Virus record (IMG/VR): IMGVR_UViG_3300042568_000171
Span: 1 to 34,315 of that record
DNA: 34,315 nucleotides
Source: a virus
Direction: 5' to 3' (one strand)
The translations under genes and the position numbers were made by a program. The notes below the pieces were generated by a model, which searched no databases, was not told the DNA's origin, and saw only the letters and a list, made by a program, of their open reading frames with translations. Of this stretch, positions 19,014 to 25,880 are shown piece by piece (the first letter of the stretch is position 1; each line of letters starts with the position of its first letter).

Positions 19014-19634
19014 TCATTCCCCAATAATTTTCTTCAGTGCTGCAACCTTGGCGTCCACTTCAGCCAAGAACTTAACGACCTCTCCCTCCGTGGCCGACAG
19101 CCATTCGTCATCCCGATGTACACGGGTAACAAACAGTTGGGCCTTGGCGGGCATTCGCGGATCAAACACAACGTAGTCGCACCATGACCTGTCGGCGCAG
19201 CGCATCTGCCATTGCATTTGGGCGAAGTATTTGCCTTCTACCGGCGTGTCCGATAGCCAGCATTCCAGAGCGGTCTTGCTGTCAGGGCATTTGATCTCTA
19301 CCATGCCATCGTCACCGACAAGGCCGTCAGGAGAGGCACCAGCCGCTTCAATTGATGGGTGAGGGATAAACCCCACTTCGTCCACCATAACGCCTCTGGA
19401 AGCCTCATACGCGGCCCTAGCAAATGGTTCCTGATCTATGCCCCATTGCATGGATGCGTTTGTGTAGGACTCAGCCTTTGAGCCGGTGACCCGCTCCAGA
19501 ACAAGCTGGGTCATGTAGTTGCCGCGGTCTGCTCCGTAGCCGGTCTTGGTCTTGGCCAGGACTTTGTACAGGCTGCTGGCCGTGACTTTGCCCAGACGGG
19601 CTACAAACCATTCTTCTGTACGCTGCTCATCCAT
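19014..19634 (-). CDS. YqaJ / lambda-Exo-type 5'-3' exonuclease
   Basis: The 206-aa protein opens RTEEWFVARLGKVTASSLYKVLA, as in YqaJ recombinases. The active-site cluster is ASPDGLVGDDGMVEIKCP (D103, E113, K115), followed by QMQWQM (Q141 region). It should resect double-strand ends to give 3' single strands for annealing. The start at 19634 has AGGAGA upstream and overlaps the annealing-protein gene by 8 bp. The upstream extension of the frame (starting MIEQKRRKQ) lies inside that gene and is not used. Key partner of the neighbouring ERF-type protein. Confidence 0.92.
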   Translation of the reverse strand: MDEQRTEEWFVARLGKVTASSLYKVLAKTKTGYGADRGNYMTQLVLERVTGSKAESYTNASMQWGIDQEPFARAAYEASRGVMVDEVGFIPHPSIEAAGASPDGLVGDDGMVEIKCPDSKTALECWLSDTPVEGKYFAQMQWQMRCADRSWCDYVVFDPRMPAKAQLFVTRVHRDDEWLSATEGEVVKFLAEVDAKVAALKKIIGE

Positions 19635-20193
19635 TTGCTTTCTCCTTTTTTGCTCTATCAATACGGGCTTTCTTGGCTGCGATGACCTTCAGTTGTAGTG
19701 TCTGATTGCCTTGGCAAGCATCGTAGGCATCTTTGTACGCCTTGGTCATTTCGTCGCTGCTGGCGCTGGCTTCAATAGCCGCCAGGTGGTCTGTAATGTC
19801 TGGGGTTGCAGTGCGGCGCGTTGCTGCATTGCCGTCGTCGTCCTCTGGAGCGATGCCGCAAGCAGCCATCAAAGAGTAACGGCGGGCATACGTCAAAGCC
19901 GATCCGTAGCCCTGTGGATCGTGTTTAGCGGCAGGAACGTGCAGTTTGCCGCTGGTGATAACTTCACCTGATTCGTGGATCAGCACGGTTTCGACGGTCA
20001 CCCCATCAGCGCATTCGCTGGTCTGTTGCATCAAGGCAATGCCGTTCTGGTTTAAGGCGTCAATGACTGCCTCAACACAGGCCGACAGGTCAGCGTAACG
20101 GCTGCGAAAGTGCGGGTTCGTGGAAGACTTAAGCGCAGGGCCGAAAGCCTTCTGTGCCTTTACGAATGCGGTAGCTATCTTGGTGCCGATCAT
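19627..20193 (-). CDS. ERF-family single-strand DNA annealing protein
   Basis: The 188-aa product has the ERF signature FGPALKSSTNPHFRSRYADLSACVEAV and DPQGYGSALTYARRYSLMAACGI. After about residue 125 come a linker (ATRRTATPDITDH) and a charged C-terminal helix. P22 Erf and relatives anneal complementary strands during recombination and circularisation. Length is normal for the family. The start at 20193 overlaps the preceding stop (ATGA). With the exonuclease it forms a two-component recombination pair. Confidence 0.93.
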   Translation of the reverse strand: MIGTKIATAFVKAQKAFGPALKSSTNPHFRSRYADLSACVEAVIDALNQNGIALMQQTSECADGVTVETVLIHESGEVITSGKLHVPAAKHDPQGYGSALTYARRYSLMAACGIAPEDDDGNAATRRTATPDITDHLAAIEASASSDEMTKAYKDAYDACQGNQTLQLKVIAAKKARIDRAKKEKANG

Positions 20194-20675: not shown

Positions 20676-20792
20676 TTAGAACGGTGCGGGGTTGGTTTTC
20701 TCTTGTTCTTGCTGTTGTTTGCGTTTGTATTCGCGTACCTGGGCGGGTGTCCAAGGGACAGGCCCGCCAGGCGGCGGGAAGGGCCAGGTCAT
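20676..20792 (-). CDS. 38-aa microprotein
   Basis: ATG at 20792, TAA at 20676. Product MTWPFPPPGGPVPWTPAQ followed by a highly basic, Gln-rich helix (VREYKRKQQQEQEK) ending TNPAPF. The start overlaps the stop of the 63-aa gene (ATGA), with no ribosome site of its own, so reinitiation is expected. The proline-rich head and charged helix look like a peptide-type interaction module. Too short for family recognition; moderate confidence because it fills the gap exactly with coupled ends. Confidence 0.62.
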   Translation of the reverse strand: MTWPFPPPGGPVPWTPAQVREYKRKQQQEQEKTNPAPF

Positions 20793-20980
20793 TTGCGGCA
20801 CGTTGCGTCAACATTGGCAAAGAATCGAGCGCCGTGATATGCGCTGCCTTGTTGAGTGCCGGGGCAACGGCACAGAATGACAAGACCGTAGGTTTCGTCA
20901 ATGCGGGCCGGGTGCAGTTTGGTGCCGCCGCGACCGATACGAACCGAGCCGACTGCTGGTTTGTTTGGAGTGGTGTTCAT
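20789..20980 (-). CDS. 63-aa Cys-containing early protein
   Basis: First gene of the leftward operon, product MNTTPNKPAVGSVRIGRGG ... ILCRCPGTQQG ... VDATCRK. It has a CxC pair (C37, C39) and a C-terminal Cys, possibly metal-binding. The leader AAGGAAGCATC is nearly identical to that of the 43-aa gene. About 40 bases separate the predicted start of transcription from the ATG. An early function such as host takeover or regulation is inferred from position alone. Confidence 0.72.
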   Translation of the reverse strand: MNTTPNKPAVGSVRIGRGGTKLHPARIDETYGLVILCRCPGTQQGSAYHGARFFANVDATCRK

Positions 20981-21027
20981 GATGCTTCCTTAAAAGACCG
21001 CTTGCTAAGTGCTACGGCATGGGATGG

Positions 21028-21057
21028 ATGTTAAGCCAGCTTACTTTGATGCGTCAA
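21028..21057 (-). promoter_or_regulatory. Leftward early promoter
   Basis: On the minus strand, TTGACG (complement of 21052-21057) is followed after 18 bases by TAACAT (complement of 21028-21033): a good sigma70 -35 and a fair -10. The -10 lies inside GCTTAACATC, which also spans the -10 of the opposing promoter. The palindrome at 21032-21043 covers the spacer. It should start the recombination operon about 40 bp ahead of the 63-aa gene. Confidence 0.65.
21032..21043. promoter_or_regulatory. Palindromic operator candidate
   Basis: TAAGCCAGCTTA is a perfect 5-bp inverted repeat with a 2-bp centre, overlapping the leftward promoter between -10 and -35. The half-site GCTTA recurs at 21104-21108 in the rightward promoter. 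Binding by the adjacent Cro-like protein is inferred. Confidence 0.5.
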
Positions 21058-21064
21058 CCCCTTT

Positions 21065-21093
21065 TTGCAAAAAATTTGTGGTGTTGCAAAAAA
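21065..21093 (+). repeat. Direct repeat TTGCAAAAAA x2 in control region
   Basis: TTGCAAAAAA occurs at 21065-21074 and again at 21084-21093, 19 bp apart, about two helical turns. The second copy forms the -35 of the rightward promoter. The A-tracts may bend DNA or mark a regulator site. Confidence 0.6.
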
Positions 21094-21112
21094 GCGAAAG
21101 ACAGCTTAACAT
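21084..21112 (+). promoter_or_regulatory. Rightward early promoter (before cro)
   Basis: TTGCAA (21084-21089), a 17-base spacer and TAACAT (21107-21112) make a plausible sigma70 promoter. It would start transcription at or just before the ATG at 21119, giving a leaderless or near-leaderless message, although GGGG lies immediately before the ATG. The -10 lies in the same GCTTAACATC found, oppositely oriented, in the leftward promoter. Confidence 0.5.
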
Positions 21113-21118
21113 CAGGGG

Positions 21119-21274
21119 ATGGACACGACAAAGGCTATTGAACTCGCAGGAACGGCTATGGCCTTGGCCAAGCTGCTGGGCATCACACGCCAGGCGATTT
21201 CGCAATGGGGTGACCAGGTGCCCCAGGCCCGCGTGTGGCAGTTGAGGGCGCTAAGGCCGGAGTGGTTCAAATGA
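21119..21274 (+). CDS. cro: Cro-like repressor (51 aa)
   Basis: Frame from the ATG at 21119 to the TGA at 21272-21274. Product MDTTKAIELAGTAMALAKLLGI then TRQAISQWGDQVPQARVWQLRAL, ending RPEWFK. Residues about 12-32 form a classic helix-turn-helix (AMALAKLLGITRQAISQWGD), and WQLRAL.PEW is the usual ending of Cro/YdaS-type proteins. It should dimerise and bind operators in the divergent region just upstream, limiting both early operons. No CI-type partner is encoded opposite, where temperate phages place it. The next gene overlaps the stop. Confidence 0.88.
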   Translation: MDTTKAIELAGTAMALAKLLGITRQAISQWGDQVPQARVWQLRALRPEWFK

Positions 21275-21426
21275 GGCAAGTAGGCTGGTTTTGGGGTCAA
21301 TGCCCCTTGCACTATCACAAGAACGTTTGGCTCTGGCTGTACAACGATCAGACAAGCAGCCATGAGTACATCAATGTAGGCGTGATGTCTGTGGACGATT
21401 TTGGGAATCTTTTTTTGGTGAGTTGA
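21271..21426 (+). CDS. 51-aa aromatic-rich microprotein
   Basis: Starts at the ATG overlapping the cro stop (ATGA). Product MRQVGWFWGQCPLHYHKNVWLWLYNDQ...; rich in Trp, Tyr and His in the first half and ending in a DDFGNLFLVS stretch. No membrane helix, no recognised family. Coupled translation with cro argues that it is real and made early. Confidence 0.6.
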   Translation: MRQVGWFWGQCPLHYHKNVWLWLYNDQTSSHEYINVGVMSVDDFGNLFLVS

Positions 21427-21443
21427 CAAGGAATTTTTACTTG

Positions 21444-21863
21444 ATGTATGATCCAAATTGTCTAGAGTGGCATCTGGACGATGGAAATGAGGTAAGACCC
21501 CCACAGGTTTCTGTGTGGTCTTGCAAGGTAGCTGGCGAGGCGTTTGCCCTCATTTCCAACCGTCTAGCTGCTGCTCTGCCAAGAGCCAAGACCACAGAGC
21601 ATCTTGCTGGGGGTTTTTGCTTTTGCAGACCGTACTCCGCACGAAGTAGGGGCCGCAAGTGGGGCTGCTCGGAAGGAAACCGCGACACGGTATGCCGTAA
21701 GGCTAGGGGGCAGTTCCCGAACAATCCGTGCGGCTGGTCGAATCATCAAGCCGAGGGGCGTACGGTGAGAACCCGTAGCATGATGATCCCGCAAGGGGGT
21801 GGAACCTGTTCCTTCTTACTTCACTGGTGTGGGGTAGGGGGGTCTTTGGGTGGAATTTACTGA
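21444..21863 (+). pseudogene. Possible frameshifted early gene (wHTH-like second half)
   Basis: A frame opens with ATG at 21444 (AAGGAA upstream) reading MYDPNCLEWHLDDGNEV ... FALISNRLAAALPRAKTTEHLAGG. After about 21610 its translation becomes unnatural (GFCFCRPYSARSRGR) although it stays open to 21863. From about 21613 to the TGA at 21766-21768 a second frame reads more convincingly: FAFADRTPHEVGAASGAA, then RKETATRYAVRLGGSSRTI and RAAGRI. The frames join if one G is removed from the GGGGGTTTTT run at 21609-21618, suggesting a sequencing error, a mutation or a +1 shift. The joined product resembles small winged-helix early phage proteins. An alternative is untranslated RNA. I see no other gene in 21427-21963. 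Confidence 0.35.
21494..21522 (+). promoter_or_regulatory. RNA hairpin, possible attenuator element
   Basis: 21494-21506 (AAGACCCCCACAG) pairs with 21511-21522 (CTGTGTGGTCTT) around a GTTT loop: about 11 pairs with one mismatch and one bulge. The second arm can instead pair with CAAGACCACAG at 21587-21597, after which GGGGGTTTTTGCTTTT follows. The two folds are mutually exclusive, as in an attenuator. It overlaps the doubtful reading frame at 21444. Confidence 0.4.
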
Positions 21864-21886
21864 ATTTGATTTTTGAGACACGGCTA

Positions 21887-21908
21887 GGTCTGGATTGATC
21901 CCCAGACC
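21887..21908 (+). promoter_or_regulatory. Hairpin upstream of the replication operon gene
   Basis: GGTCTGG (21887-21893) and CCAGACC (21902-21908) form a perfect 7-bp stem with an 8-base loop. No T-run follows, so it is not a simple terminator. It lies 55 bp ahead of the ATG at 21964. Further on, CCTCC at 21919-21923 can pair with the GGAGG ribosome site at 21946-21950. Confidence 0.4.
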
Positions 21909-21963
21909 GAAAAGCGAACCTCCCGCCTGCCGCTGTTTCTTTTCAGGAGGAGCAGGAGTTGTT

Positions 21964-22200
21964 ATGAGAAAGTTTGAAGTACGCACAACCAAGCTGGTTG
22001 TCGCACCTAAAGGCGAGCAAGTCTTTTCCGAGATGGCCACCTGGGTGGAAATCAAAGACGATGCTGCTGGTGAATTCGTCATGGTGACGCAATCAGGCCG
22101 CACTGATGTTGGCCAGATAGCCATAGACACGGACGAATGGCCAGCACTGAGGGACGCCATTGACCGCATGATTGCTCAATGCAGGGGGAATCATGTTTGA
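21964..22200 (+). CDS. 78-aa early protein, unknown function
   Basis: Starts at the ATG at 21964 behind two ribosome sites (AGGAGG at 21945, CAGGAG at 21953). Product MRKFEVRTTKLVVAPKGEQVFSEMATWVEIKDDAAGEFVMV followed by an acidic helix (DTDEWPALRDAIDRMIAQC). It has a small alpha/beta layout of strands, turn, strands and C-terminal helix. The open frame upstream is rejected because it ignores both ribosome sites. It overlaps the replication-type gene by 8 bp. Confidence 0.78.
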   Translation: MRKFEVRTTKLVVAPKGEQVFSEMATWVEIKDDAAGEFVMVTQSGRTDVGQIAIDTDEWPALRDAIDRMIAQCRGNHV

Positions 22201-25719: not shown

Positions 25720-25880
25720 CCCCAATCGCCGATTTAGTCGGCGGTCTAAAGAAAAAGCCGCGGGGCAAAAGGCTTGCGGAGTTGGTTGAACAAGTTTCTT
25801 CACCCAATTATGTAAGCCCCCTTGACGACAAATCAAAGGCAAAGCAAAATGCAATGCCTAAGTCAAGGAAAGCTAAATGA
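25716..25880 (+). CDS. 54-aa Lys-rich protein (GTG start)
   Basis: GTGA overlap with the previous stop (GTG at 25716). Product TPIADLVGGLKKKPRGKRLAELVEQVSSPNYVSPLDDKSKAK... ending KSRKAK; about a quarter of residues are basic. A GTG at 25683 opens a longer frame but reads through a low-quality stretch (LHPRTFFLPE), so the coupled GTG is preferred. Unknown function; nucleic-acid binding is likely from charge. Confidence 0.65.
   Translation: MTPIADLVGGLKKKPRGKRLAELVEQVSSPNYVSPLDDKSKAKQNAMPKSRKAK

Follow-up and report, generated by a model that had tools for sequence, protein, structure and literature searches.

The immunity region of Salmonella phage P22 combines its Cro with operators of the form TTAAG-N4-CTTAA and divergent early operons, the replication genes lying on the right. 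Its c2 gene is situated between O_L and O_R, three sites are annotated on each side, and cro starts approximately 30 bp past its annotated promoter. The Cro of Yersinia phage PY54 is likewise small and all-helical, binds a 16-bp palindrome and is translated from an mRNA that RACE has shown to be leaderless; however, it has a single binding site, leaves its own expression unrepressed and occurs alongside cI, which sets it apart from the phage described here (PMC4488713). In cluster K mycobacteriophages, the SAS/ESAS regulatory element is repeated directly upstream of many genes, often of different families, with both its function and its binding protein unresolved (PMC3203893).

The locus considered here lies in a viral record of IMG/VR that is 34,315 bases long and is referred to in its entirety as the window (Table 1). 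It shares with P22 the type of Cro, the operator form, the divergent early operons and the placement of replication genes on the right, as well as an Erf-type recombination gene on the left; a predicted leaderless cro is a feature held in common with PY54. It differs from P22 in that no gene corresponding to c2 was found, in lacking three sites per side, and in the position of cro, only 6 nt past the -10 box. Recombination genes of both Erf and YqaJ type occupy the left side, with virion and terminase genes in other parts of the window, and the first leftward ORF has no match in Pfam or PHROG. A phage-collection search for close DNA relatives of the window returned just one 50-bp match; relatives were gathered with the 51-aa protein as query (48 viral contigs), with an alignment query, which added more, and with a divergent Cro query, which gave a further set.

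Table 1. Positions of predicted genes, promoters, operators and leader structure at the early control locus
Feature	Coordinates	Strand	Description	Basis or score
cro	21119..21274	+	P22-type Cro repressor, 51 aa	Profile, structure and fold matches
O_R, rightward operator	21095..21110	+	CGAAAGACAGCTTAAC; core 21097-21108; over -10 box and -35/-10 spacer	Matrix score 14.6; core matches 7/8
O_L, leftward operator	21030..21045	-	GTTAAGCCAGCTTACT (+ strand spelling); core 21032-21043; over leftward -10 box	Matrix score 16.0, top match in whole window; core 8/8
Middle operator, decayed	21053..21068	.	GTCAACCCCTTTTTGC; at leftward -35	
Rightward promoter	21107..21112 (-10)	+	-35 TTGCAA 21084-21089; 17-bp spacer; -10 TAACAT	From sequence
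Leftward promoter	21028..21057	-	TTGACG-18-TAACAT	Promoter scan
Leader hairpin, leftward transcript	20994..21018	-	GCCG...CGGTCTT; directly after predicted start	
First leftward early ORF	20789..20980	-	63 aa; Shine-Dalgarno AAGGA	ORF list and sequence
Erf-type ssDNA annealing protein	19627..20193	-	Leftward operon	PF04404, E 1.6e-22; phrog_2324

The 51-aa protein scores well above the cut-off of the P22_Cro family (PF14549, E 1.3e-12, 47.7 bits vs 30.2), and also, more weakly, above that of YdaS (PF15943, 33.9 vs 30 bits). Its best PDB match by sequence is 1RZS, P22 Cro, and the same entry is the first Foldseek match of its predicted all-helical fold (pLDDT 96; rmsd 1.0, TMq 0.80, E 0.015). 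By family, sequence and predicted fold, it is identified as a P22-type Cro. The gap of 6 nt between the -10 box and the cro ATG recurs in almost every locus, irrespective of recognition-helix class, and because cro begins so soon after the -10 box its mRNA is predicted to start at the A of the AUG and is probably leaderless. The -35 hexamer of this rightward promoter is weak, and the leftward promoter of the relatives reads TTGACA-17-TAACAT. Leftward transcription in the window is predicted to begin at approximately 21021 (-).

The original prediction placed an identical 10-mer, GCTTAACATC, in opposite orientations at the two -10 regions, and exactly two copies are indeed present in the window, at 21027-21036 (-) and 21104-21113 (+). 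Equally borne out are the palindrome TAAGCCAGCTTA over the leftward -10 box, which coincides with the O_L core, and the overlap of the rightward -35 with a direct repeat (TTGCAAAAAA at 21065-21074 and 21084-21093, the second copy holding TTGCAA). What had been overlooked is that the rightward 10-mer is also half a palindrome, AAAG-ACAG-CTTA, at the O_R core. The 10-mer is the overlap of an operator half-site, CTTAA, with TAACAT, the -10 box of both divergent promoters. For a 138-bp spacer of the same composition, the chance of an inverted exact 10-mer pair is approximately 0.018; however, the pair by itself constitutes weak evidence, since four inverted exact pairs no more than 110 bp apart are observed in the whole window vs 5.0 expected. 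The direct repeat was discarded as a conserved element, as it is peculiar to the window's lineage, with only its second copy widely conserved in an alignment of 34 intergenic regions.

Conservation was assessed over 49 distinct intergenic regions whose Cros carry the recognition helix SQW or SLW, counting a core TAAG-N4-CTTA with at least seven of eight matches. Such a core is found at the leftward promoter in all 49 and at the rightward promoter in 48, where it spans positions -22 to -11 from the cro ATG, so that 48 of the 49 regions have it at both. The exact 10-mer is far more restricted, occurring at the right site in 16 regions and at both sites in a single sequence, common to the window and contig L003. 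The expectation that relatives would retain the 10-mers is contradicted by contig L002, whose Cro is identical over residues 1-51, yet which has CTTACAGT and CTTACAATC in their stead whilst retaining the palindrome core. The AAG and CTTA arms show at least 98 % invariance over 41 distinct rightward sites, with a variable 4-bp centre between them. The AAG arm is 98-100 % invariant although it lies between the -35 and -10 hexamers, a stretch in which promoters do not require a set sequence. What is conserved, as read from these alignments, is not the 10-mer but the palindrome TAAG-N4-CTTA, which is 12 bp long and joined to the TAACAT -10 box; judged by the comparative data, the region is far from chance.

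Further sites were considered. The middle site at the leftward -35, degenerate in the window, is intact as CAAGCCCCCTTA in many relatives, 22 bp to the right of O_L. A match at 25811 (score 14.3) was not counted as an operator, because comparable matches of the relatives fall inside conserved coding sequence. Looping between operators was likewise set aside, the distances from O_L to O_R (64-66, 74, 82-83 and 89-91 bp) being without helical phasing. No clear operator pair was found in PdC23 or in Manatee Spring phage MW202462.

Support for the operators comes from P22 itself. A symmetric matrix, for which these metagenomic sites were the sole training set, was run over 6 kb of that genome (NC_002371 28500-34500), and the five top-ranked positions all fall inside the annotated O_L and O_R (chance approximately 1e-8). 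The two predicted sites are judged to be real Cro operators. Relatives with other recognition helices point in the same direction: Cros with a WLW helix (L047, L136, L140, L141, L148) are accompanied by GTCTAN-N4-CTATAC at both left and right sites, and the WNW-helix Cro of L147 by GTCCA-N6-TGGAC at both. With kinship ignored, these two classes appear to tie both sites to one protein, a claim limited by classes YH, SH and SR and one YQ member, where a clean left-right match is absent. The SHW-helix Cros (L227, L228) have another palindrome before cro, GTTGA-N6-TCAAC, with no left partner found. Several helix classes with matching operator changes offer a ready data set for rules of protein-DNA recognition. 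The proposal that one small Cro dimer could serve both early operons is well supported by the conservation, the P22 operator match and the concerted change of helix and site, although the element concerned would be the palindrome and not the 10-mer in which it was first placed.

The locus very probably acts as the switch for early control in a phage without a detected lysogeny repressor, in which Cro, acting on matched operators, would shut off both operons. Taking the anatomy, the conservation, the P22-type operator and the lack of a detected CI or integrase from the sequence, we infer binding, repression, start sites and timing along the following lines. On entry, both divergent early promoters, which are of sigma70 type, would fire, the leftward one driving the recombination and accessory operon and the rightward one the cro and replication operon. 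Cro would be the first rightward product, probably from a leaderless mRNA beginning at its AUG. As it accumulates, dimers would occupy the palindromic operator TTAAG-N4-CTTAA predicted to overlap each -10 box, as well as, in many relatives, the middle site at the leftward -35, and bound Cro would exclude RNA polymerase, turning off both operons together with any repeated units.

A lysogeny repressor usually adjoins this kind of divergent promoter arrangement. In the window the single HTH_3 (lambda-repressor-type) match is at cro, with no CI-type HTH elsewhere and no integrase. Lambdoid and P22 immunity regions are recognised by a cI or c2 gene that lies between the two operators and is transcribed divergently from cro, and no such gene was found here. 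It is conceivable, but improbable, that these phages are temperate, that the locus is an ordinary lambdoid immunity region and that cI and integrase simply happen to be missing from the contigs. The contigs are environmental and have no completeness estimate, and Ramlibacter monticola, the nearest relative in one bacterial-genome scan, has a 235-aa ORF, CI-like on reading of its translation, directly left of and divergent from cro. Against this, the aligned contigs have the leftward promoter and an early gene other than cI at the place beside cro that cI usually takes, and searches of 24 relatives (contigs of 30-37 kb without completeness estimate) returned no integrase, no S24 and at most one HTH_3 match each, whereas control genomes gave matches in the S24 and integrase searches. 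Less probable still is that the operators mainly serve another repressor, such as a P22-c2-like protein of a resident prophage or a host factor, with Cro secondary: the P22 annotation assigns the same operators to the C2 repressor, but no such gene was found in these contigs, and the sites track the helix of the phage's own Cro. Least likely of all is a mere chance likeness of two -10 regions with no common regulator, since, despite some five inverted exact 10-mers within 110 bp per random window-sized sequence and the confinement of the exact 10-mer at both sites to the window and L003, the palindromic arms are invariant beyond the promoter hexamers, the same matrix recovers the P22 operators, and both sites change together in the WLW and WNW Cros. 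A natural Cro circuit without a detected CI partner, present across dozens of phages, would open the solo action of Cro to study.

Control by Cro may extend beyond the two central operators. Scanning the flanks of the relatives with the matrix revealed further high-scoring sites 340-1800 bp left of cro, against a background of 0.004 hits per kb. These belong to a repeated unit, comprising a TTGACA-17-TACAAT-like promoter, an operator over its -10, a GCC...GGTCT hairpin leader, a Shine-Dalgarno sequence and a gene. Of the 46 genomes whose left flank extends for 1.4 kb or more, 39 carry one or more extra units by inspection, and in L007 the promoter-gene arrangement occurs three times in succession; in the window, no second leftward module was detected at the scan threshold. 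The genes behind the units are of differing families that swap places, one having an LPD29 domain and most being unknown. The arrangement is reminiscent of SAS/ESAS, except that in these phages every repeat can be recognised as a promoter and is accompanied by a P22-type Cro operator and a leader hairpin. On balance we favour viewing the early-left region as a series of exchangeable cassettes (Cro-repressible promoter, 5′-terminal hairpin leader and accessory gene), whereby a single leaderless Cro would act as the purely lytic timer of a dispersed regulon, with no lysogeny switch. Such promoter-operator-hairpin units could provide a means of finding Cro-regulated early genes in uncultured phages.

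Hairpin leaders of the form GCC[C/G]...[G/C]GGTCTT occur at several leftward promoters of the relatives (e.g. L007 2300-3680), with loops such as GAAA, GCAA, TAAC and TTCG. Amongst 35 distinct leaders, 20 have C-G and 13 have G-C as the base pair adjoining GCC/GG, and several different 4-nt loops are present. As a guess, the hairpin might stabilise the 5′ end of the transcript. The leader sequence GGTCTTT bears a faint likeness to boxA. A short ORF within the leader of the leftward transcript was rejected, its frame not being preserved among the leaders.

Downstream of cro, the ATG of an ORF at 21271-21426 (+) overlaps the cro stop codon, this ORF sitting between cro and an int-alpA RNA. A strong sigma70-like promoter, TTGACA-18-TATGAT (11/12), heads window positions 21423-21860 (+) and is followed by a non-coding structured stretch of approximately 400 nt. 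The latter is approximately 79-89 % conserved in relatives, with 15 of 120 pairs in the consensus fold changed on both sides and a z-score of -2.9; it has no match in Rfam or the phage collection and is a candidate new phage RNA. The int-alpA RNA lies at 21877-21950 (+) (RF02996, 37.0 bits vs 35.8), and a relaxed-threshold Rfam search of 20900-22000 yielded nothing new besides it. Although no integrase was detected in them, 23 of the 24 relatives carry int-alpA at E ≤ 0.001, usually shortly after cro.
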